A stretch of 64,000 bases of DNA from Bradyrhizobium sp. NDS-1 (lineage in GTDB: Bacteria > Pseudomonadota > Alphaproteobacteria > Rhizobiales > Xanthobacteraceae): the NCBI RefSeq assembly GCF_032918005.1, contig NZ_CP136628.1:6309501-6373500 (forward strand). The letters run 5' to 3'. Of this stretch, positions 20,489 through 36,779 are shown in pieces. A program made the position numbers and the translations under genes. Every line of letters starts with the position of its first letter. Within the stretch, counting starts at the first letter, position 1. The notes below the pieces were generated by a model. It did no database searches, had not been told where the DNA came from, and saw only the letters and a program-made list of their open reading frames with translations.

Positions 20489-20498
20489 GCGCGCAAGC

Positions 20499-21449: not shown

Positions 21450-21544
21450 GATGCGTGCTCAAATGGCCATCGATCCTCAGTCATAGCCGTGCCGGAAGGC
21501 GTTGGATACCTGCATCCGCAATCAAGGTAAAATGAAATGAAGAA

Positions 21545-22339
21545 TTAGCTATCCGACGGCAGCCCCCGCTCGATGCCGCGAAAGCGCAGTGGCGCCAGCG
21601 CCGACGCGCGCTGCCACCAGTCGGCGACGCGGTCGTCGAGCCCGGTGGTGCCGCGGCCCTGGCCGGGGAAGATCCGGATCTGCTGGACCGCTTCGGCTTG
21701 AAAGCCCCTGCCCTTGCGCGTGATCTTGATGACCGCGCCTTCACGGTCCCGCTGCGTCAGCGGCACCAGCAGGCGGCCGCGCGGGCGCAGCGCCTCGAGC
21801 CAGAGCGGATGCGGGTACGAAAAGCCGGCGTGTATGATGATCACGTCGGCGGGTTCGGGAATCTCCTCACATCCATCGCCGTGACATACGATGACGTTGC
21901 GATAGGGGCGAAGATAGTTCGCAGCGCGGAACGCCAGACGCTCGTCACAATCGACCGCCACCACGCGTCCTTTCGGGCCGACCATCCTGGACAGGATCGC
22001 CGTGAAATAACCGAGCCCGCAACCGATCTGGACCACGCGGTCCTTCTCCTTGATGTCGAGCACGTCGATGAAATGCGCCCACAGGCTCGGCAGCCCGGTG
22101 TCGAGCCTGCGGCGCGCGTCGATCGCGACCAGCACATTGTCGTAGAGATGGACGGGATCGGCATCCGGCGTCAGCCGGTAGCTGCGGGCCGTCTCGCTCT
22201 TGATACGCCACCGGCCTCTGGGCAGAAAATCCTCACGCGGGACGGCAGCAAGCGCTTCGAGCAGGCGCGGTGAGGAAATCCGCTCGCGCTTCGCAATCAG
22301 CTCGACGTAACGCGCACGCGCGGCGGCCAGATCGCTCAT
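21545..22339 (-). CDS. Protein-L-isoaspartate O-methyltransferase family protein
   Basis: A 264-residue SAM methyltransferase that would repair isoaspartyl residues. Motif I is RVVQIGCGLGYFTAILSRMV, preceded by PSLWAHFIDVLDIKE. The usual PCMT substrate-binding sequence near the N-terminus is altered, and the C-terminal third is longer than in classical Pcm (about 210 residues), so a different methyl acceptor is possible. The ATG follows the stop of the upstream cyclase gene by one base, which implies co-transcription and coupling. Confidence 0.75.
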   Translation of the reverse strand: MSDLAAARARYVELIAKRERISSPRLLEALAAVPREDFLPRGRWRIKSETARSYRLTPDADPVHLYDNVLVAIDARRRLDTGLPSLWAHFIDVLDIKEKDRVVQIGCGLGYFTAILSRMVGPKGRVVAVDCDERLAFRAANYLRPYRNVIVCHGDGCEEIPEPADVIIIHAGFSYPHPLWLEALRPRGRLLVPLTQRDREGAVIKITRKGRGFQAEAVQQIRIFPGQGRGTTGLDDRVADWWQRASALAPLRFRGIERGLPSDS

Positions 22340-22340
22340 C

Positions 22341-25300
22341 TCACCGCATCGGCCCGTTCGCGACGAGCGCGTCTGCGCCGAGTTCGTTGACGAGCTCCAT
22401 CGCCTGCTTGAGGTCCGGCGTGTCGAAACCCTCGCTGAACTTGCCGACGATCGGCACAAGCAGCAGGCTGGCATGCTCACGCTTGCCGGCGTCGAGCGAC
22501 AGTCGCGCCAGGCTGACGGCAGTGCGAAGCTCCCAGGACAGCGCGCCCTGCTTGCGCGCGACCTCCAGCGACAGGGTAAAAAGATCCACAGCCTCCTGCA
22601 TCGATGCCGGGTCGCCGTCCGACAGCGTGATCTCGCCTTGGAGGCGATAGACTTCGGCGAGATAGGAGTGATCGCCGGTGCGTCTGGCGGTCGCGAGTGC
22701 ACCGTCAAGCGCGCGCAGGGCCGCCTCGCGCATCCCGACCTTGGCATAGGCTTCGGCGAGCAGACAGCGGAACCAGCAACCGGCGAGCCAGGAATCCATC
22801 GCCTCGTACTCGTCGAGGCCGAAGCGCATCTGGCTGAGACCTTCATCGGCCTCGCCGAGCTGGGCCAGCGCCCAGCCGCGCAGGATCGCGGCCTGCTGCT
22901 TCCAATGCAGGAAGCTGTGTTCGGTGGCGATGATCATGGCGCGGTTGGCGTAGTCGCGCGTACCCTCGACGTCACGCAGATGCTGGCAGAGATAGGCGCC
23001 GAACACGAGCGCGAAGGCGAGCGTGAAGGGATGGCGGATCTTCTCGGCATTCGCGATCGCCTGCTCGCTGTGCTGGCGCGCCGCGTCAGGCCGGCCGAGG
23101 AACCACAGGAGGTAGCCGAGATAGGACAGCGAGACGACGCCGGGATCGGTGCCGTGCCGCTCCATCAGGTCGGCGTGCAAATCGGGGCTATAGAGGTTGA
23201 TGCAGCGGTGCAAATGATGCTGGGAAGCAGCGAAGCGTCCGCGATAGAGCATGGTCATCGCGATCGAGCGATGCGCCTCCATCAGATAGCCGGTCTGCTG
23301 GGCCGGCTGCGCCCGTTCGTTCAGCCGCTCGCGCTTGGCGAATTTCAACAGCTCGACGCTGAGATCGTGCGCGCGGGAGAGATCGGCTCGGATGAAATGG
23401 CAGACCCACAGGCCGCGGGTGGCGGCAAAGGCCTTTTCGTCGTCGTCGAGCTGCTGACCGAGCTCGAGCGCGCGGATGTAGTTCTCCTCGACCTCCTGCA
23501 CCGCGTAGCCCTTGGCGGAGATCAGCGCGTTGCCGAGCGCGATGCGCAGCTCGAGCTCCATCTCGTCCGCGCCCTGCATGCGCGCATTGGCGTGCACGAC
23601 GCTCAAGCCCCGGCGCAGGTGACCGATTGCCTCCAGATTGCCGCCGCTCCTTGCCGCCTGCTTGCCGGCCTTGAGCCAGAAGCTTGCCGCGCCCTCGCTC
23701 TGGCCGGACTCGGTCAGGTGATGGGCGAGCAGCTCCGGTTCGCGCTCGGTCCTCTCCGGATACATCTCGGCGAGCACCTGGGCGATCCGCGAATGCAGCT
23801 TGCGCCGCTCGCTGTGCAAGAGGCTGTCATGCGCGGCGTTCTGGATCATCACGTGCTTGAACGAATAGAGCGCGTCCGGCGGATGGCCGCGGCGCATGAT
23901 CAGCCCCGCCTGCTCCAGATGATTGAGCGCGGCCTCGATCTGCTCGGCCGGCGTGTTGGCGACGGCATGCAGCGTCTCGTAGGAGAACTCACGGCCGATG
24001 GTGGCGCCGATCTGGGCGATCCGCTTGAACGGGCCCATGCGGTCCAGCCGCGCCATCAGCGAGTCGGTCAGGGTTGCCGGGATTGCAAGCTGCCGCCACG
24101 GGCCCGACAGGACGTAGCGCCCGTGCCGCTCGGTCAAGAGGTTGGATTCCAGGACGGTCTTCGTGAGCTCTTCCAAGAACAACGGCACGCCGTCGGTCTT
24201 GACGATGATCTCCTCGACGACCTCCTTGGGCATCTCTCTGCCGGCGACGCGCTCCACCAGCGTCGTGCGCAACTGCCGGCTCAGGCGGTTGAGCACCAGC
24301 GTCGTGATGTGCGAATGCGCGTTCCAGCTCGGCTGGAATTCGGACCGCGCGGTAATGATGACCAGGATCGGCCGGTTCTGCGCCCGATCGACCAGAAGGT
24401 CGATCACCTCACGGGAGGTCGGATCGATCCAGTGCAGATCCTCGAATGCGATCACGAGCGGCATCTCGCGCGCAAGGCCCAGGAAGTGATTGACCAGTGC
24501 CGCGACGGTGGCGTCCTTCTGCTGCTGCGGTGACAGCTCGAGCGGCGGATAGCGGTCTGCGGTCGGTATCGACAGCAGCGCGGCAAACAGCGGCGTAATC
24601 TGCTCGATGTCGCCATGAGCGGCGGCGATCGCGGTCTCGAGGCTCGTCAGCGACAGTGCGGACGGATCATCGCGGTCGAGGCCGAGGGAGAATCTGAGCT
24701 GCTCGGCGAACGGATAGAGCGCCGTGGACGTGTAGTAGGGCGAGCACTGGAAAGAGACCTGTCCGTGACGGTCGCCCGAGATCCGCTCGAAGATTTCCTG
24801 GATGATGCGCGACTTGCCGATGCCAGGTTCGCCGAACTTGACGACGACCTGGCCGTCGCCGTCCTTGGCCTGCTGCCAGCGGCCCATCAGCAGCGCGATC
24901 TCCTCCTCGCGGTTGACGAGCGGCGTCAGCCGCGTGCCCATGGCGGCCGCGAAACGTGTTTCCACCCGCGAGGCGCGCATCACGTGCCAGGCCTGGGCCT
25001 TCTCGGAGATTCCCTTCAGATCATGGACGCCGAGATTGCGGAACTCGAACTTCCCTTTCAGCAGCGAGTGGGTCGAGGCGGAGATCACCACGCCATTGGG
25101 CGGCGCCAGGCCTTGCAGGCGCGCGGCGAGGTTGACGGTCTCGCCGACCGCGGAGTCGCGCTCTTCGGTCCCCTGCCCGATGAGGTCGCCGACCACGACG
25201 AGGCCGGTCGCGATCCCGATGCGAACGGCGGGTGAGTGGCTGAGCGCGCCGCGCGGCTCGATCGCGCGTGCGGTCGACAGCACCCGCACGATCTCGAGCC

Positions 25301-25805
25301 CGGCACGCACCGCGCGCTCGGCATCGTCCTCATGCGCGGTCGGGTAGCCGAAATAGACCAGAATGCCGTCGCCGACGAAACGGGCGGCAAAACCCTCGTA
25401 ATGCTTCACCACGCGGACGCAGGTTTCGCGGAAGCTCGCGATCATGTCGCGGACGTCTTCCGGATCGAACTGCACGGAGAGCGAGGTGGAATCCACCATG
25501 TCACAGAACATGGTGGTGAGCTGACGCCGCTCGGCGCCGACCTCTGTGCGGATTTGCGGCCGCACCGTCGCCGCGGGCGCCTGCGCCGTTTCCGCCTCGA
25601 ACAGCGCCGCCATCGCCCGTTGCAGCCGCTTGCGATCGCCAAGCGGCAATCCGAGCTCGACCAGATCGGATTCGGTCAGGTCACCCATGACGTCGAGATC
25701 AAGGCGGTGCTGTGCGAAGAGATCGGAGTAATGGCCGAGGCCGATGCCCTCGAGCCAGCGCTTCAGCCCGCCTTCCGTTCCCGTGTCCGGCTCGTTCTCC
25801 AGCAT
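22341..25805 (-). CDS. SAM domain - class III cyclase - AAA ATPase - TPR signalling protein
   Basis: A 1154-residue cytoplasmic protein. Residues about 15-70 form a SAM domain (LKRWLEGIGLGHYSDLFAQH, DLTESDLVELGL). A class III cyclase domain spans about 90-270 (LTTMFCDMVDSTSLSVQFDP, FVGDGILVYFGYP, VGETVNLAARLQGLAPPNG). A zinc-less linker then leads to a P-loop ATPase (KFGEPGIGKSRIIQEIFERI, Walker B-like VIAFEDLHWID) and a long helical TPR region to the end. Both catalytic aspartates are present. This is the architecture of large multidomain cyclases common in Bradyrhizobium; the signal is unknown. The ATG at 25805 is preferred over an upstream frame. It diverges from the NRPS gene with under 200 nt between. 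Confidence 0.86.
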   Translation of the reverse strand: MLENEPDTGTEGGLKRWLEGIGLGHYSDLFAQHRLDLDVMGDLTESDLVELGLPLGDRKRLQRAMAALFEAETAQAPAATVRPQIRTEVGAERRQLTTMFCDMVDSTSLSVQFDPEDVRDMIASFRETCVRVVKHYEGFAARFVGDGILVYFGYPTAHEDDAERAVRAGLEIVRVLSTARAIEPRGALSHSPAVRIGIATGLVVVGDLIGQGTEERDSAVGETVNLAARLQGLAPPNGVVISASTHSLLKGKFEFRNLGVHDLKGISEKAQAWHVMRASRVETRFAAAMGTRLTPLVNREEEIALLMGRWQQAKDGDGQVVVKFGEPGIGKSRIIQEIFERISGDRHGQVSFQCSPYYTSTALYPFAEQLRFSLGLDRDDPSALSLTSLETAIAAAHGDIEQITPLFAALLSIPTADRYPPLELSPQQQKDATVAALVNHFLGLAREMPLVIAFEDLHWIDPTSREVIDLLVDRAQNRPILVIITARSEFQPSWNAHSHITTLVLNRLSRQLRTTLVERVAGREMPKEVVEEIIVKTDGVPLFLEELTKTVLESNLLTERHGRYVLSGPWRQLAIPATLTDSLMARLDRMGPFKRIAQIGATIGREFSYETLHAVANTPAEQIEAALNHLEQAGLIMRRGHPPDALYSFKHVMIQNAAHDSLLHSERRKLHSRIAQVLAEMYPERTEREPELLAHHLTESGQSEGAASFWLKAGKQAARSGGNLEAIGHLRRGLSVVHANARMQGADEMELELRIALGNALISAKGYAVQEVEENYIRALELGQQLDDDEKAFAATRGLWVCHFIRADLSRAHDLSVELLKFAKRERLNERAQPAQQTGYLMEAHRSIAMTMLYRGRFAASQHHLHRCINLYSPDLHADLMERHGTDPGVVSLSYLGYLLWFLGRPDAARQHSEQAIANAEKIRHPFTLAFALVFGAYLCQHLRDVEGTRDYANRAMIIATEHSFLHWKQQAAILRGWALAQLGEADEGLSQMRFGLDEYEAMDSWLAGCWFRCLLAEAYAKVGMREAALRALDGALATARRTGDHSYLAEVYRLQGEITLSDGDPASMQEAVDLFTLSLEVARKQGALSWELRTAVSLARLSLDAGKREHASLLLVPIVGKFSEGFDTPDLKQAMELVNELGADALVANGPMR

Positions 25806-25990
25806 GGTGATTTCTGCCCGACCCTCATTCCGTCGAAGGGCTTCAGGGCGCCTCAACCACAGATTTTGGGCCCAAAACGTCACCTCAGACTGGACGCGTT
25901 CCCCAACTTCTTGGAAGAATAGCTCAATCGCATCAAAAGGGAACGGAATTGTCGGACGTCACACTCCCGGCCCTGGAGGAATCAGGCAGC

Positions 25991-28900
25991 ATGGCGGCCG
26001 AAACGAAGATGTTCGCCGATATCGGTGGCCTTCTCGATTTCTACGCCCGAAAGACGCCGACGGCGCCCGCCCTGCTCGCCCCGGGCCGTCCGGCCCTCAA
26101 CTACGGCGCGCTTGGCGCGGCCACGCAGGATCTCGTCCGCGCGCTGCGCCGGCTCGGCATGACCCCTGCCGACCGCATCGCGGTCGCGCTGCCGCGCGGC
26201 GCCGACAGCGCGCTGGCGCTGATCGCGGTCGCATCGAGCTGCGCCTGCGTCCCCGTCAACCCCGATCTGACGGCTGACGAATTGCAGCGCTATTTCAGCG
26301 AACTGAAGCTGTCGGCGCTCGTGACGCAGACCGACATGAGCCCTGCGAGCCGCGAGGCCGCCAAGGCGCTCGGCATCGCGATCATCGATTTCGTGCCGGG
26401 GCCGCAGGACAATCTCGCCGGCTGCGCATTCGTTGGGCCGACAGTCCGGCCAGCGGCGAACGGCGGCGCCTCGCGCGGCGACGACGATGCGTTCATCCTG
26501 TTGACGTCCGGCACGGCGGCGCGGCCGAAAATGGTACCGCTGACACATCGCAACGTGTGCCTGTCCGCCGCCAATGCCGGCCGCGTGCTGTCGCTCACGT
26601 CCCACGATCGTCTGCTCAACGTCCTGCCGCTGTTTCACGCCCATGGTTTGATCTCCGGCCTGCTGACGGCGCTGGCTGCGGGCTCCAGCGTGATCTGCAC
26701 CGACGGCTTCGACGCCCTTTCCTTCTTCGGCTGGATGCGGGAGCTGCAGCCGACCTGGTACACCGCCGTGCCGACCATTCATCGCGCGCTGCTGACGGCG
26801 GCGGAATCCGACCCGGACAGCGCCCGATCGTCGTCGCTGCGCGTGATCCGTTCGGCCTCGGCCTCGCTCGCGCCCACAATCCTCCAGGGGCTGGAGGCGA
26901 CGTTCGGCGTTCCGGTGCTCGAAACCTACGGCATGACCGAAGCCGCCTCGCAGATCGCGGCCAATCCGTTCGAGCTGCGCAAGGTCGGATCGGTCGGTCG
27001 CGCCGCCGGCCCCGAGATCGCGATCATGGACGAGACCGGCCGCGGGCTTGCGAGCGGCGCGCAGGGCGAGATCATGCTGCGCGGACCGAACATGACCCGC
27101 GGCTACTATAATGACGAAGCGGCAACGCAGGCCGCGTTCCGCGACGGCTGGTTCCGGACTGGCGACCTCGGCTATCTCGATGGCGACGGCTATCTTTTCA
27201 TCGTCGGGCGCATCAAGGACGTCATCAACCGCGGGGGGCAGAAGATCTCGCCTCTCGAAGTGGAAGAGGCCCTGCTCAGCCATCCGGCGGTGCTGGAGGC
27301 CGGCGTGTTCGCCGTCCCGCACGACAAGCTTGGCGAGAACGTTGCCGCCGTCGTGGTGCTGCGATCGGATGCCGAGGCGACCTCGGACCAGTTGCGCCAG
27401 TTCGTGCGAAGGCGGCTCGCAGCCTACAAGGTGCCTAGCCTGATCCGCAGCGTGGCAGCCCTGCCGAAGGGCGGCAGCGGCAAGGTCAAGCGTAACGCGC
27501 TCGCGGGGCTGATCAAGGCGGAGCACGCGGACGATGCGCGGTTGCCACGCAACCCGCTGGAGACCCAGCTCGCCGCGATCTGGGCCGGTCTCCTGGAGCT
27601 GCCGCGGGTCGGCGTCGACCAGGACGTCTTCGCGCTCGGTGCTGATTCGCTCGCGGTGACACAGATGCGCTCGCGCCTGCGCGAACGCTTCAACGTCGAC
27701 TTCTCGTTCGAGGACATTTTCGATTGCGCCACCGTCGCCGCGCTTGCGGCCCGGCTCGGGACTGCGGCGAGCCGTCGCGAGACGGCACTGCCGGCCTGGC
27801 GGCGAGTGACGGCCGCAGAGGCGCCGCTCTCGTTCCAGCAGCAGCGCATGTACGTGCTCTCGCGGCTCGATCCGACGCGCTACAATTACAATGTGGTCGA
27901 GGTCGCAGCGTTCAGAGGCCTGATCGACGTCGCCGCGCTTCAGGCCAGTCTTGCCGCGGTCTGTGCGCGCCACGAGGCGCTGCGCTCGGTCATCGTCGAA
28001 CGCCAGGGCGAGCCGTCGCAGCTCGTGCTGCAATCGGCGCCGCGGCTCGAGCGCGTCAAGCTCAAGCCCTGTGCTGCCGACAAACGGGCCGCAACGATCA
28101 GGCGCGAGGCACTCAAGCTCGCGCAATACCCTTTCGACCTGGCGCGCGAGCCGCTGCTGAAAGTCACGCTGCTGTCATTCGACAAGACGAGCCACGCGCT
28201 GGTGGTCAACGTCCATCACCTCGTTACCGACGGCTGGTCGCAGCGCCTGTTCTGGGAGGAGCTTGCAGCCCATTACGCCGCCGCACACAAAAGGAGCGTG
28301 GCGGCAGAGCCTTCGCCGGCTTTCCAATATCGCGACTTTGCGCTCTGGCAACAGAGCTGGGCGCAGACGCCGGCCGCAAAGGACCAGCTCGACTATTGGC
28401 GGACCCAGCTCGACGGCGTCACGACGCTGCCGCTGCGGACCGACCGTCCAAGGCCTGAGGTCTGGAGCGGTCACGGCGCCCGCCACTATCTCGAATTCTC
28501 CAGGACGCAGTCGGCCGAACTGCGCGCGTTCAGCCAGAACCAGGGCGTCACGCCTTTCATGACGCTGCTCGCCGCCTTCCAGTGCCTGCTATTCCGCCAC
28601 ACCGGGCATGAGGATGTCGCAACGGGATCGCTGATTGCCAACCGCAACCAGATCGAGAGCGAGCGCCTGATCGGGCTGTTCGCCAACACCCTGATCCTGC
28701 GCAACGATTTTGGCGGCGATCCGAGCTTCAGCGAATTGCTGCGGCGGGTCCGGCAGGTCACCCTCGATGCCTACCGCAACCAGGACCTTGCGATCGAGGA
28801 GGTGCTGCGGGCGCTGCAGGTCGCGCGGCGGAGCGACGGCAATCCGGTGTTCCGGATCATGTTCATCCTCCAGAACGCCTCGATCGAGGCGGCACGCTTC

Positions 28901-31900
28901 CCGGGCCTGTCGGCACGGCGGCTGGAAGTCGATCCCGAGGTGGCACGCTTCGACATCACGCTCGAGCTGGTCGAGGCCGACGGCCGCTTCACCGGCTTCT
29001 TCGAATACGCCACCGATCTGTTCGACGCCGCGACGATCGAGGCCATGGCGACCCAGCTCAAGTCCGTGCTGAAGGCCGCCATCGTCAATCCGGAGCAGCG
29101 CATCTCGCGCCTGCCGCTCCTCAACGAGACCGAACGCCGGCAATTGCTGGCGGCAGGCCGCGGCGTGCCGGCCAATTTCACCACAAGCGGCAATTTGAGC
29201 GAGCGCTTCGATCGTCAGGCCAGGAAGACGCCGAACGCGATTGCGGTGTCGGACGGGCGCACATCCCTGAGCTATCGCGAACTGGCCCGCCGCAGCCAGG
29301 CGATCGCGCGCTGGCTGGCGCGCGAAGGCGTCGGCGCTGAGAGCGTGGTGGCCTTGCTTGCGGATCGCGGGCCCGACCTGCTCGCCGCGATGATCGGCGT
29401 GCAGCGCGCGGGCGCGGCCTTCCTCAATCTCGACCCCGATCAGCCGCCAGCGCGGCTCGCGACCATTCTGGGATCGAGCTGCGCCCGCATGCTGCTGACC
29501 GGGCGGGCCCGGTCCGCCATGGTCGAGACGCTGCTCGCTCCGCTGGTCGAGCGCATTCCGGTGGCCGAGCTCGAAGACACGATCGCGTCGGCAGCGGCCA
29601 AGCCGGCCCGCGCCGCGCGGCGCGCGGCCTCCAGCCTTGTTTATCTCATTTATACATCGGGCTCCTCCGGAGCGCCGAAGGGCGTCATGATCGAGCAGCG
29701 CGGCCTGTCGAACCATCTTGCCTCGCTCGTCTCCGAGCTCGGCCTCTGCTCCAGGGACGTGATTGCGCAGACCGCGCCGCAGAGCTTTGTCATATCGGTC
29801 TGGCAGTTCCTGGCGGGGCCGATGGTCGGCGCGCGCGTGCATGTCTGCGACAATACGATCGTGCAGGACCCGATCCTGCTGGCGCGGGAGATCGAGCGCG
29901 AAGGCATCACCGTGCTTGAGATTGTCCCATCGCTCTTGCGCGTCATGGTCGATCGGATGAACGAGGGACAGGTCCGGCGCGCCTTCGCCGGATTGCGGCT
30001 GCTGATTTCGACCGGCGAGCCGTTGCCCGTCGACCTCTGCCGGGCCTGGTTCGCCGAGTGCCCGAAAGTACCGCTGATCAACGCCTATGGCGCTTCGGAA
30101 TGTTCCGACGACGTCTCCCTGCATCGCCTGACCAGGGCGCCGGCGATCACGACCGGCATCGTCCCGGTCGGTGCAGCGCTGCCGAACACCCAGCTCTACG
30201 TGCTCGATGCGAATCTCCAGCCGCAGCCGGTCGGCGTGACCGGCGAGCTCTGCATCGGCGGCGCGGGTGTCGGCCGCGGCTATATCAACGATCCCGCGCA
30301 GAGCCGGCAGCGATTCCTGCCCGATCCGTTCTCGCGCCAGACAGGCAGCCGGCTTTACCGCACCGGCGACCTCGCGCGCCGCCGCGCCGACGGCACGATC
30401 GAATGCCTCGGCCGCGCCGACCATCAGGTCAAGGTCCGCGGCTACCGCATCGAGCTCAAGGAGATCGAGAACGCGCTCGCCGATCATCCCGGCGTGCGGG
30501 CCGGCATCGTCGAGCCGCGCCGCGAGGCGAGCGGCGACATCCGGCTGATCGCCCATATCGTCGCAAGCCCCGACAGCCGGAGCAGCGCCAGCGAGCTGCG
30601 CGATTTCCTCAAGAGCCGGCTGCCGGGCCACGCCATCCCGTCCGCATTCCTGTTCCTGGATCACGTTCCGCTGAGCGCCCACGGCAAGATCGACCGGTCC
30701 GCGCTGCTGGCGCCGGCGCAGCAGGAATCGTCCGAACCGGATGCGACCGTGCCGGCGCGGCGCTTCACCGAAAAGGTGCTCGCCGACATCTGGATCGACC
30801 TGCTCAGGGTGGACAGCGTCGGCGTCACCGACAATTTCTTCGACCTCGGCGGCCATTCGCTGCTGGCGGGCCAGACGATGGCGCGTGTCGCGCGGGCGCT
30901 CGGGGTGTCGCTGCCGATCAAGACCATCTTCGAAGCACCGACGATCGAAGGACTTGCCCGGCGGGTCGACCAGGCCATGACGGAGACGCCGCGCAAGCCT
31001 GGCGCCATGTCGGGGCTGGCTGATGCGAGGCCGACCGACGGCGGCGGGCCGACGCTCTCGATTGCGCAGGACCAGATGCTGCGGATCGAGCAGAACCTCC
31101 CGGGGTTGCCGCTGTTCAACCTGCCCTTCGCCTTCCGTCTCCAGGGTCCGCTCGATGCGACCGCCCTGGCGCAGGCGATCGACGATGTGGTCAATCGCCA
31201 CGAAGCGCTGCGGACCGCGTTCGGCTGGAACGGCGAGGAGCCTGTCCGTCACGTCGCCGCACCCGGCACCCTCGGCCGTGTCCTGACCATCGAGACGATC
31301 GGCGACGGCCAACCCCACAACAACAAGCGGCGCAGAGCCCTGGAGCAGAGGAAGGTCGATCTCCTGATCCAGCACGAGACCTATGGCCCAATCGACCCCA
31401 CGCGCGCGCCCCTGCTGCGTGTCAGGCTGTTGCGGATCCACGACGCCGATCATGTCCTGTTGCTGACGCTGCATCACGCCATTGTCGACGGCTGGTCGAT
31501 CGGTGTGCTGTTCGAGGAGGTGTCGAGCCGCTATGCAGCGCTGTCCGGACATCCGTCGGCGCCGCTACCAAAGCCGCCTCCGGCCTTCTCGGACGTCTCT
31601 CGCTGGCAGCGCTGGTGGTGCGGCACCGACGCTGCCCGCCGCCAGGCTGCCGACTGGACGGAGAATTTGCGCGGCGCGACCCCCGTCTTCGACGGCAAAT
31701 CAACCCCAGGCGCGTCCAGCGGGCACCATCCGGTCAGCCTCGAGCCCGAGTTGATCGGGCGGCTCAAGACGTTCGCCAGCCAGCACAACGGCACGCTCTT
31801 CATGGGCCTGCTCACCGGCCTGAAGACCCTGCTGCTCGCCCGGACGGGCCGCACCGACATCGCGGTCGCCACCGCCATGGCCAATCGCGCCCAGCCGGAC

Positions 31901-32395
31901 ACCGACCGGATCGTCGGCCCGTTCGAGAACACGGTGATCATCCGCACCACAATCACGCCCGAGCTGTCGTTCGCGCAAGCGTTGACACGGGTGCGCCAGA
32001 GTGTGCTCGACGCCCATGCGCGGCAAGAGCTGCCGTTCAACCTCCTCGCCGACCATCTGGAGCGGGAAGGGATCGATCCGGCCTCGCTGCTCCAGGTCTA
32101 TTTCACGCTGCAAAATCCACTGCGTCAGCCGCTCGATTTGCCGGATCTCGCGACCCAATCGATCGGCAACATCACGCGCGAAGGCCAGCCGGTGCTGCCG
32201 ATCAACCAGACCTGGCTGTCGCTGATGCTCAAGGAGCGCCCGACCGGAATCACCGGCTCGTGCAATTACAAGCGCGAATTGCTGGACGGCCATTTGGTCG
32301 GCGCGTGGATGAAGGATCTCGTCGTGCTCCTGGCGACTGCCATCGCCCAACCCAACTTGCCGCTCGGCCGATTGCTCGCTCGCAAGGCGGCATGA
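25991..32395 (+). CDS. Dimodular nonribosomal peptide synthetase, A-T-C-A-T-C
   Basis: A 2134-residue synthetase. Domains by residue: A1 about 5-500 (LLTSGTAARPK, ETYGMTEAASQ, INRGGQKISPLEVEEAL), most like stand-alone oxalyl/acyl-CoA ligases; carrier T1 near 551 (ALGADSLA); C1 with HHLVTDG near 741; A2 about 1060-1560 (YTSGSSGAPKG near 1220, LYRTGDLARR); T2 near 1622 (DLGGHSLLAG); and a last C with HHAIVDG near 1827. Both condensation sites look active. There is no thioesterase, reductase or epimerase domain, so the terminal C probably releases the product onto a nucleophile. In A2, Val1267 replaces the usual Asp of FDxSVW. A TTG 14 codons upstream is an alternative start. Followed by genes for a small peptide, Sfp-type transferase and monooxygenase. 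Confidence 0.93.
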   Translation: MAAETKMFADIGGLLDFYARKTPTAPALLAPGRPALNYGALGAATQDLVRALRRLGMTPADRIAVALPRGADSALALIAVASSCACVPVNPDLTADELQRYFSELKLSALVTQTDMSPASREAAKALGIAIIDFVPGPQDNLAGCAFVGPTVRPAANGGASRGDDDAFILLTSGTAARPKMVPLTHRNVCLSAANAGRVLSLTSHDRLLNVLPLFHAHGLISGLLTALAAGSSVICTDGFDALSFFGWMRELQPTWYTAVPTIHRALLTAAESDPDSARSSSLRVIRSASASLAPTILQGLEATFGVPVLETYGMTEAASQIAANPFELRKVGSVGRAAGPEIAIMDETGRGLASGAQGEIMLRGPNMTRGYYNDEAATQAAFRDGWFRTGDLGYLDGDGYLFIVGRIKDVINRGGQKISPLEVEEALLSHPAVLEAGVFAVPHDKLGENVAAVVVLRSDAEATSDQLRQFVRRRLAAYKVPSLIRSVAALPKGGSGKVKRNALAGLIKAEHADDARLPRNPLETQLAAIWAGLLELPRVGVDQDVFALGADSLAVTQMRSRLRERFNVDFSFEDIFDCATVAALAARLGTAASRRETALPAWRRVTAAEAPLSFQQQRMYVLSRLDPTRYNYNVVEVAAFRGLIDVAALQASLAAVCARHEALRSVIVERQGEPSQLVLQSAPRLERVKLKPCAADKRAATIRREALKLAQYPFDLAREPLLKVTLLSFDKTSHALVVNVHHLVTDGWSQRLFWEELAAHYAAAHKRSVAAEPSPAFQYRDFALWQQSWAQTPAAKDQLDYWRTQLDGVTTLPLRTDRPRPEVWSGHGARHYLEFSRTQSAELRAFSQNQGVTPFMTLLAAFQCLLFRHTGHEDVATGSLIANRNQIESERLIGLFANTLILRNDFGGDPSFSELLRRVRQVTLDAYRNQDLAIEEVLRALQVARRSDGNPVFRIMFILQNASIEAARFPGLSARRLEVDPEVARFDITLELVEADGRFTGFFEYATDLFDAATIEAMATQLKSVLKAAIVNPEQRISRLPLLNETERRQLLAAGRGVPANFTTSGNLSERFDRQARKTPNAIAVSDGRTSLSYRELARRSQAIARWLAREGVGAESVVALLADRGPDLLAAMIGVQRAGAAFLNLDPDQPPARLATILGSSCARMLLTGRARSAMVETLLAPLVERIPVAELEDTIASAAAKPARAARRAASSLVYLIYTSGSSGAPKGVMIEQRGLSNHLASLVSELGLCSRDVIAQTAPQSFVISVWQFLAGPMVGARVHVCDNTIVQDPILLAREIEREGITVLEIVPSLLRVMVDRMNEGQVRRAFAGLRLLISTGEPLPVDLCRAWFAECPKVPLINAYGASECSDDVSLHRLTRAPAITTGIVPVGAALPNTQLYVLDANLQPQPVGVTGELCIGGAGVGRGYINDPAQSRQRFLPDPFSRQTGSRLYRTGDLARRRADGTIECLGRADHQVKVRGYRIELKEIENALADHPGVRAGIVEPRREASGDIRLIAHIVASPDSRSSASELRDFLKSRLPGHAIPSAFLFLDHVPLSAHGKIDRSALLAPAQQESSEPDATVPARRFTEKVLADIWIDLLRVDSVGVTDNFFDLGGHSLLAGQTMARVARALGVSLPIKTIFEAPTIEGLARRVDQAMTETPRKPGAMSGLADARPTDGGGPTLSIAQDQMLRIEQNLPGLPLFNLPFAFRLQGPLDATALAQAIDDVVNRHEALRTAFGWNGEEPVRHVAAPGTLGRVLTIETIGDGQPHNNKRRRALEQRKVDLLIQHETYGPIDPTRAPLLRVRLLRIHDADHVLLLTLHHAIVDGWSIGVLFEEVSSRYAALSGHPSAPLPKPPPAFSDVSRWQRWWCGTDAARRQAADWTENLRGATPVFDGKSTPGASSGHHPVSLEPELIGRLKTFASQHNGTLFMGLLTGLKTLLLARTGRTDIAVATAMANRAQPDTDRIVGPFENTVIIRTTITPELSFAQALTRVRQSVLDAHARQELPFNLLADHLEREGIDPASLLQVYFTLQNPLRQPLDLPDLATQSIGNITREGQPVLPINQTWLSLMLKERPTGITGSCNYKRELLDGHLVGAWMKDLVVLLATAIAQPNLPLGRLLARKAA

Positions 32396-32524
32396 CGACC
32401 GCGCCATGACGGCTCACTCGTCAAAGCTGTGCATGACCAAGTTGCATCTTGATTATTTGACGCCACCGCGCAAGATTATTCCTGCGTTTCCATTTGGACG
32501 ATTATTTTCAACCGGGGGAGTGTT

Positions 32525-32692
32525 ATGGGTTTCATCAAATTTACCAAAGGTACCGCGTTGAGCGACAAGGACCGCAAGGCCCTCCTGAAGCTGCTGAGTG
32601 CCGAGAAGAAGAAGCTGCAGTCCGCCCTGAAGGACGTCGATGCCAGCCTGTCGGTGCTGAGCGGCGCGAAGAAAGCCAAGAAGAAGAAGTAA
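32525..32692 (+). CDS. 55-residue lysine-rich peptide gene next to the NRPS
   Basis: Starts MGFIKFTKGTALSDKDRKAL and continues into a charged helix (LKLLSAEKKKLQSALKDVDA) ending in a poly-lysine tail. It has an ideal ribosome site, GGGGGAG six nt before the ATG, stronger than any neighbour. No signal peptide, no cysteine. The heptad-like leucines suggest a short coiled coil. It lies between the synthetase and the phosphopantetheinyl transferase on the same strand. It may be a partner of the locus, a nucleic-acid-binding peptide, or unrelated. I do not recognise a family. Confidence 0.62.
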   Translation: MGFIKFTKGTALSDKDRKALLKLLSAEKKKLQSALKDVDASLSVLSGAKKAKKKK

Positions 32693-32827
32693 GATTCGTC
32701 GGCCGGGACGCCGCACGACTCTTCAGGCTTCACTTTCGGACATGGGCCGCTCGTGTATCGAGCCGGGGTCTCGCACAAGCTTGCGCCTGTAAACCGGCCT
32801 GCAAATCGACAAGAAATCGCCCGGGTG

Positions 32828-32844
32828 GACCGCTAGAAGCGGTC
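32828..32844 (+). promoter_or_regulatory. Short hairpin upstream of the phosphopantetheinyl transferase gene
   Basis: GACCGCT and AGCGGTC form a perfect 7-bp stem with loop AGA, about 80 nt before the ATG at 32926, inside a 233-nt gap. It may be a weak terminator or processing site for the upstream peptide mRNA. No T tract follows. Confidence 0.25.
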
Positions 32845-32925
32845 TGCTTGGATGATTCTTGCTCAGTTGTTTCTTCCGTCGGGGCCGGGGATTTTCCCTC
32901 GGCCTGACGCAATAGGCCCCAATTG

Positions 32926-33657
32926 ATGGCGGACGACAGAATTGAACTCTTTGTCGGACTGATCGAGTCCATTGACGTGCCGGGCGCGGTCGATACGTGC
33001 CGGCGGCTGCTTTCGGTGGACGAACGGGCGCGGGCCGATCGCTTCATGTTCGAGCGGCATCGACGGCAGTATATTTTCGCGCACGCCATGCTGCGCCTGG
33101 CGCTGTCGCAGGTCGCCTCCAACGTCGCTCCCTCCGACTGGTCCTTTGGAGCCGGGCGCTACGGGCGGCCGTTTGTCGCAGCGCCCGCGACCTCGACCGC
33201 GCTGCATTTCAGCCTGTCCCACGCCGACGGCTGCGTCGCCTGCGTCGTGTCGAGGCATGAGACCGTCGGCGTCGACGTCGAAACCGTGTCGCGGCGGGTG
33301 GCGCCGCTGTCCACTGCGCTTCGCTTCTTTGCGCCGGAGGAGGTCGAAACGCTGCGCGGACTGCCGGAGCCGGCCGCGATCGAGCGCTTCTTCGACTATT
33401 GGACGCTCAAGGAGGCCTATCTGAAGGCCAGGGGCTTTGGGCTCAATTTGCCGCTCGACGCCTTCGCGATGCAGGTGTCGCGCGAGGGCATCGAGATCAG
33501 CTTCAAGCCCGATATCGCCGACGATCCCGACGGCTGGCGCTTTTCGCTGTGCTCGCCGTCGCCCTCTCATCGCCTCGCGATCGCCGACGGCTCCCGCGCG
33601 AACGGCGGCCTTCCCATCAGCCGCAATGCCTGGCCGCTCCAGGAAGCGGCTGAATGA
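32926..33657 (+). CDS. Sfp-type 4'-phosphopantetheinyl transferase
   Basis: A 243-residue enzyme that transfers phosphopantetheine from CoA to carrier domains, here most likely T1 and T2 of the adjacent synthetase. The family motifs are intact: FSLSHADGCVACVVS, VGVDVETVSRR with the Mg-binding acidic residues, and FFDYWTLKEAYLKARGFGLN. The length is typical of the Sfp class. The ATG is chosen over a TTG one codon earlier. Its TGA overlaps the ATG of the monooxygenase gene (ATGA), so the two are made together. Confidence 0.92.
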   Translation: MADDRIELFVGLIESIDVPGAVDTCRRLLSVDERARADRFMFERHRRQYIFAHAMLRLALSQVASNVAPSDWSFGAGRYGRPFVAAPATSTALHFSLSHADGCVACVVSRHETVGVDVETVSRRVAPLSTALRFFAPEEVETLRGLPEPAAIERFFDYWTLKEAYLKARGFGLNLPLDAFAMQVSREGIEISFKPDIADDPDGWRFSLCSPSPSHRLAIADGSRANGGLPISRNAWPLQEAAE

Positions 33658-34634
33658 CGTCGCCGCGGCTGCGCGTCTTTCCGGCGATTTCGCGCAACCG
33701 CGACCCCGGGACATATGTCGGCGAGCTGATGCGGGTCGCGCAGTTCGCCGACCGCAACGGTTTCGAGGGCGTTCTGCTGTTCGAAGGCAACGACGTATTC
33801 GTCGAGCCCTGGGCGATGGCCCAGCACATCATGGCAGGGACGGCGCGATCTTCGCCGCTGATCGCCGTCAATCCGGTCTACATGCACCCGTTCACGGCGG
33901 CGAAATTCGTCTCGTCCCTTGCGCAGCTCCACGGCCGCAAGGTCTATCTCAACATGATCACGGGGACGGCGGTCAGCGACTTGCAGGGCCTCGGCGACGA
34001 CCAGTCGCATGCGGATCGCTATGTCAGGCTCGGCGAATTCGTGGAGCTGATGCGCCAGTTGCTGGCAAGTCCGCGGCCGGTCAATTTCGAGGGGCGTTTC
34101 TACCGTACGCACCATCTGCAACTGCGACCGCGCCTGCCGCCGGAGCTGATGCCGGAATTCCTGATCGCAGGCCAATCCGAGGCAGCCCAGCGGGCGGCGG
34201 AGCAAGCGGGCTGCATCAAGATGCAGATGCTGCCGCCCGAGCTCGATCGCGAGCTCCACTCGCCCGGCATGAATTTCGGCATCTTCGCCCGCGAGGGACG
34301 CGAGGAGGCGCGGCAGGCCGCCAAGCTGCGTTTCCGCGACAACCCCGACGATCGCGAGCTGCTCGTGCTGACCATGGAGAACACTGATTCCGTGTGGAAG
34401 CGGCACCTCTATGACGGCCAGAGCGGCGAGCTCCGGGATAATGGCTACTGGCTGCTGCCATTCCTGACCTTCCAGGCCGATTGCCCCTATCTCGTCGGCA
34501 GCTACGAGGAGATCGGCGCGAGGCTGAAGGCGTTTGCGGCAAAAGGCCTGACCACGATCATGCTCGACATGGTCGCCGACGAATCCGAGATGCAGCACGT
34601 CTGCAAGGCGCTCGCGGCGAGCGGGATGTTCTAG
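33654..34634 (+). CDS. Luciferase-like (LLM class) flavin-dependent monooxygenase
   Basis: A 326-residue FMN-dependent TIM-barrel enzyme of the bacterial luciferase/SsuD superfamily. Typical blocks are RVAQFADRNGFEGVLLFEGN, SSPLIAVNPVYMHPFTAAKF, GRKVYLNMITGTAVSDLQGL, HADRYVRLGEFVELMRQLLA and EFLIAGQSEAAQRAAEQAGC. It needs reduced FMN from a separate reductase, not seen here. Co-translation with the phosphopantetheinyl transferase makes it a probable tailoring oxygenase for the NRPS product, for example hydroxylating or oxidatively cleaving a carrier-bound intermediate. An independent alkanesulfonate role is the alternative. Confidence 0.88.
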   Translation: MTSPRLRVFPAISRNRDPGTYVGELMRVAQFADRNGFEGVLLFEGNDVFVEPWAMAQHIMAGTARSSPLIAVNPVYMHPFTAAKFVSSLAQLHGRKVYLNMITGTAVSDLQGLGDDQSHADRYVRLGEFVELMRQLLASPRPVNFEGRFYRTHHLQLRPRLPPELMPEFLIAGQSEAAQRAAEQAGCIKMQMLPPELDRELHSPGMNFGIFAREGREEARQAAKLRFRDNPDDRELLVLTMENTDSVWKRHLYDGQSGELRDNGYWLLPFLTFQADCPYLVGSYEEIGARLKAFAAKGLTTIMLDMVADESEMQHVCKALAASGMF

Positions 34635-34685
34635 CTATCACACTCGCCGTCATGGCCGGGCAACGCGGGGAGAGGTGAAGACCCC

Positions 34686-35711
34686 TCACCGCGCCTCTTC
34701 GAATCCCGCCAGTACCGAGGTCAGGTTCGCGCCCAGAATATCCGAGAGGTAGCCGCCCTCCTGCACGAACACGGTCGGCAGGCCCATCCTCGCGATGGCC
34801 TGGCCGATACGGCGGAAGCCCGGCGTGGTGACGGCCAATCCCTTGAGCGGATCGTGCTCGGAGGCGTCTAGGCCGAGCGCGATGACGAGGGCGCCGGGAG
34901 CAAAGGACTCGATTGCCTTGCGCGCAACGTCCAGCGACTGCATGTAGCCGTCGTCGCCGGTGCCGATGGCCAGCGGGATGTTGAGATTGGTGCCAAGGCC
35001 GGGTCCTTCGCCGCGTTCATGGGCATAGCCCCACACGTATGGATAATAAGCGATCGGATCGGCATGAATCGAGATCGTGTAGACGTCGGGCCGGGCGTAG
35101 AAGATGCCTTGCGTGCCGTTGCCGTGATGGACGTCGACGTCGAGGATCACGACCCGCTCGTGCTTCTGCCGCAGATGCGCTGCGGCAATCGCGCTGTTGT
35201 TGAGGAAGCAGAAGCCGCCGGCCATGTCGCGATAGGCGTGGTGACCGGGCGGACGGCAGAGCGCATAGGTCGCGTCCTCGCCATCCATCACCATCTGCGC
35301 AGCGGTGACCGCAACGTCCGTCGCGGCACAGGCCGCGGCCCAGGTGCCCGGACCGATCGGCGCCGCGGTGTCGGCGGTGTGCCAGCCGAGCTTGCCGACG
35401 ATGTGGGTGGGATAGGTCCCGGCATGCCGCACCGGATGGATGTTGCCGATCATCTCCGGGCCGGAATCGCCGAGCGCGGTCCAGGCGTCCCAGGCTTCGC
35501 TCAGGAACGACAGATATTCCGGACTGTGAATGCGCGCGCGCGGCCCCTGCCCGAATTTGGTCGGCTCAACCAGTTGGTGCTTGCCGTCCTTCAATCCATT
35601 GAGCAGGCGGTCGGCGCGCTCGGGTTGCTCGGTGGTGCGCTTGACGACGCCGCGGACCAGGAAGAATTGCGGATCGTGGCTGCGGTGCAGTTCGGTATGG
35701 ACGGCCTTCAC
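34686..35711 (-). CDS. Histone-deacetylase-like amidohydrolase (acetylpolyamine deacetylase type)
   Basis: A 341-residue zinc hydrolase. The active-site motifs are present: CRPPGHHAYRDMAGGFCFLN, VVILDVDVHHGNGTQGIFYA (zinc Asp/His), and ALGLDASEHDPL for the third ligand, followed by FVQEGGYLSD with the catalytic-site glycines. Bacterial members with this N-terminus (MKAVHTELHRSHDPQFFLVR) are close to acetylpolyamine amidohydrolases. Substrate assignment rests on that resemblance. A gamma-glutamyl/polyamine-like block lies 5 kb downstream, which fits but is not proof. Confidence 0.85.
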   Translation of the reverse strand: MKAVHTELHRSHDPQFFLVRGVVKRTTEQPERADRLLNGLKDGKHQLVEPTKFGQGPRARIHSPEYLSFLSEAWDAWTALGDSGPEMIGNIHPVRHAGTYPTHIVGKLGWHTADTAAPIGPGTWAAACAATDVAVTAAQMVMDGEDATYALCRPPGHHAYRDMAGGFCFLNNSAIAAAHLRQKHERVVILDVDVHHGNGTQGIFYARPDVYTISIHADPIAYYPYVWGYAHERGEGPGLGTNLNIPLAIGTGDDGYMQSLDVARKAIESFAPGALVIALGLDASEHDPLKGLAVTTPGFRRIGQAIARMGLPTVFVQEGGYLSDILGANLTSVLAGFEEAR

Positions 35712-35837
35712 TCAAACACTCCGTGCTCGCATGCTCTTAAGGGGCGCCGTAGATGTCTTGATCCCCACGGCGGCAAGATGCAAGCAAGAAGAATGCCGCA
35801 TCAGCCGCGCGGCTCTGCGCCTGAAGCAGATCGTCCT

Positions 35838-36779
35838 CTAGCAGCGCCCGCGCTGGAGACAGTGCTCGCGGCCCTGCTGATCGGTGCGGAAGGACTCGAT
35901 GAAGCCGCCTTGACGCTGGGTGACGAAGACGGTCTTGCCGTCGCTGCCGCCGAAGGCGAGGTTGGTCGGCTCCTTGGCTTTGAGCGCGATCTCTCGCTCG
36001 ACCGCGCCATTGGGCTTCACCAGCGCAACCGTCCCTTTGAGAATACGCGCGACATAGAGACGACCGGCAATGTCGGTGCGCAAGCCATCGACGGTGTCGG
36101 GCTGAAACGCCTTGACCAGCTTCGCAGCCGTCAGCTCGTTGCCGTTGATCGCATAGGACCAGATCTGGCCGCTGCTGGATTCCCCGACATAGAGCGTCTT
36201 GCCGTCCGGGCTAAGATCGATGCCGTTGGTGGTACCCATCGCGCGCGGCGCCGACATCACTTGTCCCCGCACTGTGCCGTCGGCCGCTTTCGCGATCCGC
36301 CAGATGTGGCCTTCTCTGCCCTTCCAGTTCGGGTCGCTCGCATAGATCGTGCCATCGCGGGCGATCGTGATGTCGTTGGGCTGGTTCATCTCGTCGGAGT
36401 GAAACCAGATGCCCGGCTGGGTCGCCCCCTTTGGAATCGCGAAGATGTTGTGCTTCTTGTAGTCGGCGATGAACATGGTGCCGCTCGCATCGAAGCGGAT
36501 GGCGTTGCCGACACTGCCCTCGGGAAGCTGCGTGAACGGCTCCGACGCCGCACCGCCCGCAGGCAGCCTGCCGATGGTGCCGGCCTTGCCGAGATTGACC
36601 ACGAACAGATTGCCCTCGAGGTCGGCTGCGGGTCCCTCGATGCCGAAGGTGTATTCACCGGGTGGCGTCACCTGCACGCTTTCGAACAATCTCGTCTCCG
36701 CTTGCGCGGATCCCGCCGCAACGACGAGGAGAACGCTACTGCACAGGCACCAGAAATTCCTGCCGGATGTAATAGCCAT
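35838..36779 (-). CDS. SMP-30/gluconolactonase-like beta-propeller protein
   Basis: A 313-residue periplasmic protein with a signal peptide (VLLVVAAGSAQAETRLFESV). Propeller repeats are visible: FGIEGPAADLEGNLFVVNLG, NAIRFDASGTMFIADYKKHN, PNDITIARDGTIYASDPNWK and NGIDLSPDGKTLYVGESSSG. The conserved Glu/Asn/Asp metal-site pattern of SMP-30 lactonases is present in this arrangement. The start is ambiguous: the ATG at 36779 overlaps the upstream dehydrogenase gene by 44 nt, and one more ATG lies at 36800. It probably hydrolyses the lactone produced by its neighbour; that is inference from context. Confidence 0.8.
   Translation of the reverse strand: MAITSGRNFWCLCSSVLLVVAAGSAQAETRLFESVQVTPPGEYTFGIEGPAADLEGNLFVVNLGKAGTIGRLPAGGAASEPFTQLPEGSVGNAIRFDASGTMFIADYKKHNIFAIPKGATQPGIWFHSDEMNQPNDITIARDGTIYASDPNWKGREGHIWRIAKAADGTVRGQVMSAPRAMGTTNGIDLSPDGKTLYVGESSSGQIWSYAINGNELTAAKLVKAFQPDTVDGLRTDIAGRLYVARILKGTVALVKPNGAVEREIALKAKEPTNLAFGGSDGKTVFVTQRQGGFIESFRTDQQGREHCLQRGRC

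Follow-up and report, generated by a model that had tools for sequence, protein, structure and literature searches.

A conserved bimodular nonribosomal peptide synthetase cluster of Bradyrhizobium with a terminal condensation domain and an undescribed family of small basic proteins

MbtH-like proteins are small partners of nonribosomal peptide synthetases (NRPSs) and work with adenylation (A) domains. In NRPSs of the rhabdopeptide type, the chain is reportedly released by the condensation (C) domain of the last module, which transfers it onto a free acceptor. In glidonin synthesis in Schlegelella, according to the part of PMC10587159 available to us, a C domain of the last module likewise releases the chain onto a free acceptor, in this case by adding putrescine, and thus release of such a kind exists. 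The same part of that source describes the glidonins as dodecapeptides, with a termination module numbered 13 and further domains after the releasing C domain. Here, we describe an NRPS locus in a 64,000-nucleotide stretch of Bradyrhizobium sp. NDS-1 (contig NZ_CP136628.1, positions 6,309,501 to 6,373,500; the window), which lies within a single-contig genome of 7.65 Mb, a Bradyrhizobium chromosome. Products of the window matched entries from Bradyrhizobium at 97 to 100%. The locus differs from that of the glidonins in having two modules, a first A domain (A1) that resembles acyl ligases, a second (A2) without Asp235, and a gene for a putative partner protein of 55 residues, here called pep55. 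We conclude that the cluster is real, conserved and, as far as we searched, uncharacterized; short NRPSs with release by a terminal C domain are a known kind, to which the undescribed pep55 family adds interest.

25949..32395, plus strand: NRPS with the domains A1-T1-C1-A2-T2-C2, 2148 codons from TTG (alternative ATG at 25991), with 67 orthologous loci among the best 80 matches
26027..27505, plus strand: A1, adenylation domain of the acyl-CoA-ligase type (closest PDB entries 5ie0 and 6qjz; pocket comparison)
27566..27757, plus strand: T1, carrier (T) domain with the motif GADSL (Pfam, motif)
27815..29149, plus strand: C1, condensation domain with HHLVTDG (Pfam, tree, motif)
29207..30718 (end approximate), plus strand: A2, adenylation domain with the code VIWEITADD, Asp235 being replaced by Val (Pfam, pocket alignment)
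30794..31003 (borders approximate), plus strand: T2, carrier domain with GGHSL (Pfam, motif)
31079..32395 (start approximate), plus strand: C2, terminal condensation domain with HHAIVDG (Pfam, tree, motif)
32525..32692, plus strand: pep55, small basic protein of 55 amino acids, predicted to be helical by sequence pattern, of an undescribed family

An original prediction made from the sequence had given the synthetase the domain order A-T-C-A-T-C without a thioesterase (TE), and Pfam bore out both points. Two AMP-binding, two PP-binding and two Condensation domains were found in one protein, the catalytic motifs were intact (YGMTE/YGASE and FRTGD/YRTGD in the A domains), and neither a TE nor a reductase (R) domain was detected in the NRPS. 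The last domain is therefore a C domain with an intact HHAIVDG motif, which supports the earlier proposal that C2 is the likely release step. A different reading is that C2 releases nothing and is a docking or hydrolytic remnant, the chain being passed to another enzyme in trans, as might be suggested by three variant loci at which a separate C-A-T-TE protein follows the synthetase (L108 to L110; L and G are our handles for loci and genomes). That reading is very improbable, as HHAIVDG is intact, the C2 type is kept in stand-alone A-T-C proteins, the median ratio of nonsynonymous to synonymous substitution rates (dN/dS) of C2 against the window gene is 0.26 (n = 67), and the other C domains of the genome lie 1.2 Mb from the locus.

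The original prediction had also named a 55-residue peptide gene and then made no use of it in its reasoning. The gene is present where predicted and has turned out to be the most informative part of the locus. A purine-rich stretch, CGGGGGAG, precedes the ATG of pep55, and its median dN/dS was 0.17 (66 relatives against the window gene); on these two grounds, we regard pep55 as a real gene. The family consensus is approximately M[GAC]F..LIDF..L(T/S)..Q(R/K)K.L...L...K..L..AL.DV..SL..L, with a tail rich in Lys and Arg after it. Comparison with Pfam and NCBIfam models gave weak matches only (best E about 1e-3) and named no known family for pep55; the first of the 13 members compared stayed below the cut-off of every model, and MbtH was not among the matches listed for any of the 13. 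Like the MbtH-like proteins, pep55 is small, encoded beside an NRPS and a presumed partner of it, but it matches no Pfam or NCBIfam model of theirs and goes with a clade of terminal C domains.

The family was found in Bradyrhizobium. When a profile was run against 5.8 billion proteins and the best 8000 candidates were scored, at least 239 relatives were returned; among the 120 matches listed, all those with a named organism were from Bradyrhizobium, and none carried a Pfam domain. In an even sample of the order, pep55 occurred in 10 of 347 genomes, all of them Bradyrhizobium (12 genomes of the genus were listed in the sample), and no match was found on plasmids. Within 235 Bradyrhizobium genomes, the profile gave 125 matches in 117 genomes, and 116 of the 125 lay within 9 kb of an NRPS of the family. 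Of the nine others, six fell at loci of a type without NRPS (five of the six sites were read; the genomes concerned have a bimodular NRPS at another place); the rest were a match at a contig end (G206), one at a contig break (G047), and a fragment in a genome that lacks the NRPS (G104). Both genome scans used a profile made from pep55 itself and 34 proteins from databases, some of them identical to matches; of those among the 235 genomes that gave no match, 98 were not individually listed, and negatives were checked by a second search only.

Viewed from the synthetase, the association is equally close. Of 131 genomes that carry an NRPS of the family (A1-T1 identity of 54% or more), 126 had an unbroken pep55 match; the total of 131 includes eleven stand-alone A-T-C matches at 55% or more (ten more genomes) and omits stand-alone matches at 45 to 46% (G066, G137, and a second one in G010) and many at 38 to 39%. 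The five exceptions were G026 (L115), the three genomes of L108 to L110 (G007, G124, and G084), and G250, whose NRPS open reading frame (ORF) has the same short size as those of L108 to L110. An ortholog scan of genome contigs, whose best 80 matches resolved into 67 distinct NRPS loci at 79 to 99% identity, was combined with variant loci, most of which have a basic ORF of 55 to 68 amino acids 3′ of the NRPS. By type of locus, pep55 accompanied 67/67 orthologous loci, 10/11 variant bimodular loci ending in C2, 7/8 stand-alone A-T-C synthetases, and 0/3 loci with an NRPS that lacks a terminal C domain, a count that is partly circular because several variant sequences seeded the profile. The count excludes a weak match (E 0.039) that falls within the NRPS ORF of L109.

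Phylogeny linked the synthetases that pep55 accompanies. In a maximum likelihood tree of 51 C domains, in which long branches were flagged, the C2 domains of bimodular synthetases grouped in one clade with the only C domain of each of seven stand-alone A-T-C synthetases (22 rows, support 100/100). The clade was apart from C1, from the C domain of the second protein of L108 to L110, and from 7 of the 11 other C domains of the window's genome. Relatives of pep55 lay beside 21 of the 22 loci of the clade, the exception being L115, and were absent at the three loci without C2, L108 to L110. The C domain of L157, a distant stand-alone NRPS, fell outside the clade on a long branch, and a 73-amino-acid basic ORF that the pep55 profile does not recognize occupies the pep55 position there. 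The bimodular and stand-alone forms may be related by gain or loss of a C-A-T module in the middle of the protein.

The earlier view of a compact locus of NRPS, 55-residue gene, phosphopantetheinyl transferase (PPTase) and luciferase-like monooxygenase (LLM) held for those four genes but had missed two more in the same conserved neighborhood, CYC and PCMT.

32926..33657 (ORF from 32923; the ATG at 32926 is the better start), plus strand: Sfp-type PPTase, PF01648, motifs GVDVE and KEAY
33654..34634, plus strand: LLM-class flavin monooxygenase, SsuD/MsuD fold, PF00296, without the SsuD residues C54, R226, H228, and R297
22341..25883, minus strand: CYC, SAM-class III nucleotide cyclase-AAA_16-TPR protein, divergent from the NRPS, conserved from residue 25 (about 25811)
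21545..about 22381, minus strand: PCMT, PIMT/PCMT-like methyltransferase, conserved part; a longer ORF overlaps CYC

Across the 67 orthologous loci, PPTase was present at 67, CYC at 66, HDAC (a histone-deacetylase-type gene downstream on the other strand) at 65, and LLM at 57. The CYC exception, L084, is a contig end, and the HDAC exceptions, L052 and L068, end before HDAC. Median dN/dS was 0.12 for PPTase (n = 67), 0.16 for LLM (n = 57), 0.09 for CYC (n = 66), and 0.05 for HDAC (n = 65), so these genes, pep55, and C2, with medians of 0.05 to 0.26, are under purifying selection. The records were titled Bradyrhizobium in 66 cases and Frankia in one (L055, Frankia sp. RB7), a Bradyrhizobium-type locus at 80% identity whose title may be wrong. 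We conclude that the bimodular NRPS cluster is, as judged from its reading frames and motifs, intact and, as far as sampled, restricted to the genus. As a separate observation, the NRPS match of L092 (Bradyrhizobium sp. AT1) spans 7112 bases instead of about 6450, which may reflect an insertion in the synthetase or a different linker.

The three loci without C2 have another arrangement. L108 to L110 carry PCMT, an A-T-C-A-T synthetase without terminal C domain, LLM, and then a second NRPS protein, which is C-A-T-TE by Pfam at L108 and an ORF of the same size with the same matches at L109 and L110. The A code of this second protein is glycine-like in all three, by comparison with what we take to be the glycine code. 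Both pep55 and CYC are absent from these loci, and PPTase lies elsewhere.

Six further loci show pep55 relatives away from any NRPS. At L139 to L144 (G008, G193, G214, G011, G219, and G034), relatives that start with MAF are convergent with a relative of CYC (40 to 41% identity), and the locus has no NRPS. At L139 and L144, Pfam identifies the gene that comes next as a flavin monooxygenase; an ORF of similar size takes this place at L140, L141, and L143, but not at L142. A flavin monooxygenase gene like that of L139 and L144 also precedes the NRPS at L118 and L119. It follows from L139 to L144 that a partner role of pep55 cannot be exclusive to C domains.

These loci raise the alternative that pep55 is a small regulator or nucleic-acid-binding protein that works with the cyclase and is carried along with the cluster. 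Consistent with such a role, a cyclase-family gene stands beside pep55 in the absence of an NRPS at all six loci, the tail of pep55 is Lys-rich, and a cyclase-domain gene lies near 7/8 stand-alone synthetases within the stretch read, a frequency to be set against 27 cyclase-domain matches in the window's genome. The joint loss of pep55, C2, and the cyclase at L108 to L110 does not separate a regulator from a C-domain partner. Loci without the NRPS also bear on the question. PPTase is kept without the NRPS in 12 genomes, of which ten sites, all with HDAC, were read (L127 and L145 to L153; G104 and G131 are outside these). Eight of the ten (all but L145 and L146) have the order GH10-DUF6492-PPTase-HDAC, with PCMT, CYC, NRPS, and LLM missing. 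NRPS remnants were found at L145 (3′ end), L146 (both ends), and L151 (a weak piece, E 0.006), and pep55 was broken or gone at all ten sites, with broken pieces at eight (L145 to L149 and L151 to L153). Pieces of the NRPS gene at L145 and L146 rule out that these two are ancestral empty sites. The remaining sites with traces of pep55 are unlikely to be ancestral either and, like these two, look like losses; L127 and L150 had no NRPS or pep55 remnant. At L146, the cyclase, NRPS, and pep55 are all broken, as a regulator might predict. At L145, however, the CYC ORF is whole (1163 amino acids) and pep55 is wrecked together with the NRPS, so that decay of pep55 seems tied to the NRPS and not to the cyclase. 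We consider the regulator interpretation unlikely.

The second residue of pep55 bears on yet another possibility. Of 106 relatives of up to 70 amino acids among the matches listed, 104 had C, A, or G as residue 2, and at the loci read this residue sorted by system: G at most bimodular NRPSs, C at stand-alone A-T-C synthetases, and A at the NRPS-less type and L119. Across these loci, Cys was found at position 2 in only 1.2% of 1522 long ORFs, real genes or not. Such a pattern would fit a pep55 that is itself the acyl acceptor, with C2 acylating a ribosomal protein at its N terminus (a Gly, Cys, or Ala freed of Met) or at Lys. Moreover, C2 needs an acceptor, only the cyclase and pep55 recur near stand-alone A-T-C synthetases (10 ORFs of four loci and the cyclases were scanned), and L108 to L110, without pep55 and C2, carry instead the C-A-T-TE protein with its presumed glycine code. 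The N-terminal residue of pep55 is not constant, however, and shared descent within subfamilies may be all that accounts for residue 2; in addition, relatives occur without an NRPS at L139 to L144, no leader or cleavage signal was noticed in pep55, and we know of no precedent for a C domain that acylates a ribosomal protein, which counts against the idea. We regard an acceptor role for pep55 as rather unlikely. The hybrid lipopeptides goadvionin and lipolanthine, in which an assembly-line acyl chain is joined to a ribosomal peptide, bear on an acceptor role only; in goadvionin, according to the part of PMC10435860 available to us, a separate acyltransferase joins polyketide and peptide, whereas here an NRPS C domain would act on an apparently unprocessed basic protein.

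What the chain might consist of was approached from the pockets of A1 and A2. The best PDB matches of A1 were oxalyl-CoA synthetases, aligned over nearly the whole length (E 1.4e-109), and A1 scored 582 bits against a FadD7-type ligase model, below the cut-off of 650. Residues aligned to AtAAE3 H214, H264, and S289 were kept in 90/90 rows, and the position aligned to H319 was Ser or Thr in 90/90; we take these four AtAAE3 residues to be the ones that contact oxalate. A1 thus resembles oxalyl-CoA synthetases and FadD7-type ligases over nearly its whole length and in three aligned residues, and unlike them it is fused to a carrier domain and has Ser or Thr at the H319 position. Given the change at that residue, we did not assign oxalate as the substrate of A1.

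For A2, with positions in what we presume to be GrsA numbering, the Stachelhaus residues read V-I-W-E/Q-I-T-A-D-D in 80 of 82 rows and differed at one place in the remaining two. Position 235, read via an alignment to LgrA, was Val and not Asp in 82/82 family rows, and acidic residues were E278 in 72/82 rows and D330 and D331 in 82/82. In the part of a review available to us, Asp235 is given as the residue that binds the alpha-amino group (PMC11355689). A1 is of the acyl-ligase type, and because A2 lacks Asp235 in every row, the substrate of A2 is probably not an alpha-amino acid. The acidic pocket residues suggest an amine placed further out, and A2 may, with low confidence, load a beta- or omega-amino acid. 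We did not adopt a beta-alanine assignment, as position 236 is Ile and not Asp and a text search for the code found no paper; what we take to be the beta-alanine code would share V235, W239, I299, D331, and K517 with A2.

The two enzymes encoded after pep55 differ in how closely they follow the synthetase. Co-occurrence was scored in 265 Bradyrhizobium genomes at cut-offs of at least 64% identity for LLM, 54% for NRPS A1-T1, and 54% for PPTase. Matches under these cut-offs were left out (for LLM, those listed included 14 at 36 to 37% and many at 30 to 33%), as were A1-T1 matches from stand-alone A-T-C proteins. LLM was present in 104 genomes and the bimodular NRPS in 121; no genome had LLM without NRPS, and 17 had NRPS without LLM. 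Synteny of the oxygenase with the NRPS in relatives, on which the original prediction had staked itself, therefore holds: all 104 LLM genomes have the NRPS, within 12 kb in 103 of them and on different contigs in G047. LLM stays with the NRPS where PPTase lies elsewhere (L108 to L110) or gave no match (L115, where LLM is directly upstream of the NRPS), and is missing at 10 of the 67 orthologous loci. PPTase was found in 125 genomes, 12 of them without NRPS, and 8 genomes had NRPS without PPTase at that level; G020, G109, G072, and G077 have a divergent PPTase (54 to 59%) inside the cluster. The predicted Sfp-type enzyme is thus in place, with PF01648, GVDVE, and KEAY, but it is not a dedicated part of the locus: AcpS apart, the genome has no second enzyme of this kind, and the Sfp-type enzyme persists in the 12 genomes from which the NRPS is missing. 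On the strength of co-occurrence and the arrangements of L108 to L110 and L115, we conclude that LLM belongs to the NRPS and is a predicted dispensable tailoring enzyme and that PPTase is mainly a resident enzyme that would serve all carriers.

The LLM reading frame starts, as predicted, within the PPTase stop (ATGA). Its predicted structure (AlphaFold, 24 sequences, pLDDT 84) had MsuD and SsuD as nearest folds in Foldseek, with E 5.7e-18 and 22% identity to MsuD, and LLM most likely uses reduced FMN supplied by a separate reductase, by analogy with that group. One could therefore suppose that LLM is an alkanesulfonate monooxygenase that scavenges sulfur and is there by chance, since its closest folds and sequences are SsuD/MsuD, databases give that name to many relatives, and a transporter of fitting type adjoins it at one locus. 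There (L042:18710-22909, between LLM and HDAC), ORFs read by eye include ABC transporter-like genes (ATPase, permease, and binding protein) resembling sulfonate/nitrate/taurine uptake systems, with a Crp-type regulator alongside; about eleven other loci may share such an insert, judged by the spacing of LLM and HDAC only. LLM scored 77 bits against the SsuD equivalog model, however, for which the curated cut-off is 518, and in a profile alignment to SsuD (1m41), C54, R226, H228, and R297 were not kept and the R226-L-H228 stretch was missing. As these four are presumably functional residues of SsuD, we do not file LLM as an alkanesulfonate monooxygenase; it shares the fold and part of the sequence and differs in its low identity, its missing residues, and its occurrence only with the NRPS. 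With none of the 104 LLM genomes lacking the NRPS, and LLM beside the NRPS even without PPTase, sulfur scavenging is a highly improbable role.

Two more distant relatives of LLM were observed. At L126 (G074, another Bradyrhizobium), one of 35% identity lies beside an AMP-binding ligase and near a carbamoyltransferase, possibly in another small biosynthetic cluster, and at L154 (G339, another family of the order), one of 41 to 43% lies near an Sfp-type PPTase (43%) and a TonB-dependent receptor, with no NRPS recognized in 19 kb.

Taken together, the explanation that we favor, with slightly better than even confidence and from sequence comparison, is a short N-acylated product released by C2 with pep55 as a dedicated partner and oxidized by LLM in some strains. 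PPTase would arm T1 and T2, and A1 would load T1 with a carboxylic acid, either a fatty acid or a small acid of polar or dicarboxylic type. The unit loaded by A2 would lack an alpha-amine, a beta- or omega-amino acid being the most likely choice, and C1 would N-acylate it. C2 would then release the chain by transfer to an acceptor, with pep55 serving the releasing domain through gating, docking, or delivery of the acceptor. The product class given in the original prediction, an amide or an ester, is likewise putative. Where kept, LLM would oxidize the product or an intermediate with reduced FMN from elsewhere, and the divergent cyclase protein probably controls expression.

Several points weigh against this explanation. 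L115, which is bimodular, and L157 have no detectable pep55 relative, and at L139 to L144 pep55 relatives adjoin a cyclase without an NRPS. L145 is the single clean case of pep55 decaying apart from the cyclase, as CYC at L146 is also broken, split into two frames. The association of pep55 with C2 does not show contact between them, and the substrate assignments rest on pocket residues in presumed GrsA numbering.

Some observations concern the surroundings of the cluster. CYC scored 542 bits against the NCBIfam TOMM kinase/cyclase model, for which the cut-off is 706. Among five window proteins scanned with PADLOC, CYC matched PycC (Pycsar) models over the cyclase domain only, and PCMT matched the mad2 (mads) model in part. 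An N-terminal extension of PCMT (about residues 1 to 155 of the longest ORF) was discarded, as it overlaps CYC. No RNA element scored above its gathering score in 20000..36000, and no tRNA gene was found in the window. Elsewhere in the genome, a larger NRPS cluster (G000:C1:5110189-5138211) accounts for 11 of the 13 condensation-domain matches found genome-wide.

Bradyrhizobium nodulates soybean and many other legumes, and about 46% of the sampled genomes of the genus (121/265) carry the bimodular synthetase, for which we found no described product. No described pathway or product for the locus was found in the open-access literature searched; a product may be known under a different name in other literature. 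In the parts of the following sources available to us, a survey of siderophores counts 234 Bradyrhizobium genomes out of 286 with NRPS-siderophore clusters, which may or may not include this locus (PMC12815270), and blr2108, an NRPS gene of B. diazoefficiens, appears in tables of regulated genes with values of 6.5 and 39.0 (PMC6515984) and in a further such table with a value of −4.6 (PMC4926349).

That pep55 follows one clade of releasing C domains offers a handle on how a terminal C domain comes to accept its nucleophile. It also raises the question of whether C domains have partner proteins as A domains have MbtH. Were pep55 instead the acceptor, C2 would represent a new type of enzyme for protein acylation and a new way to join nonribosomal and ribosomal products, kept across the genus in bimodular as well as stand-alone A-T-C synthetases.

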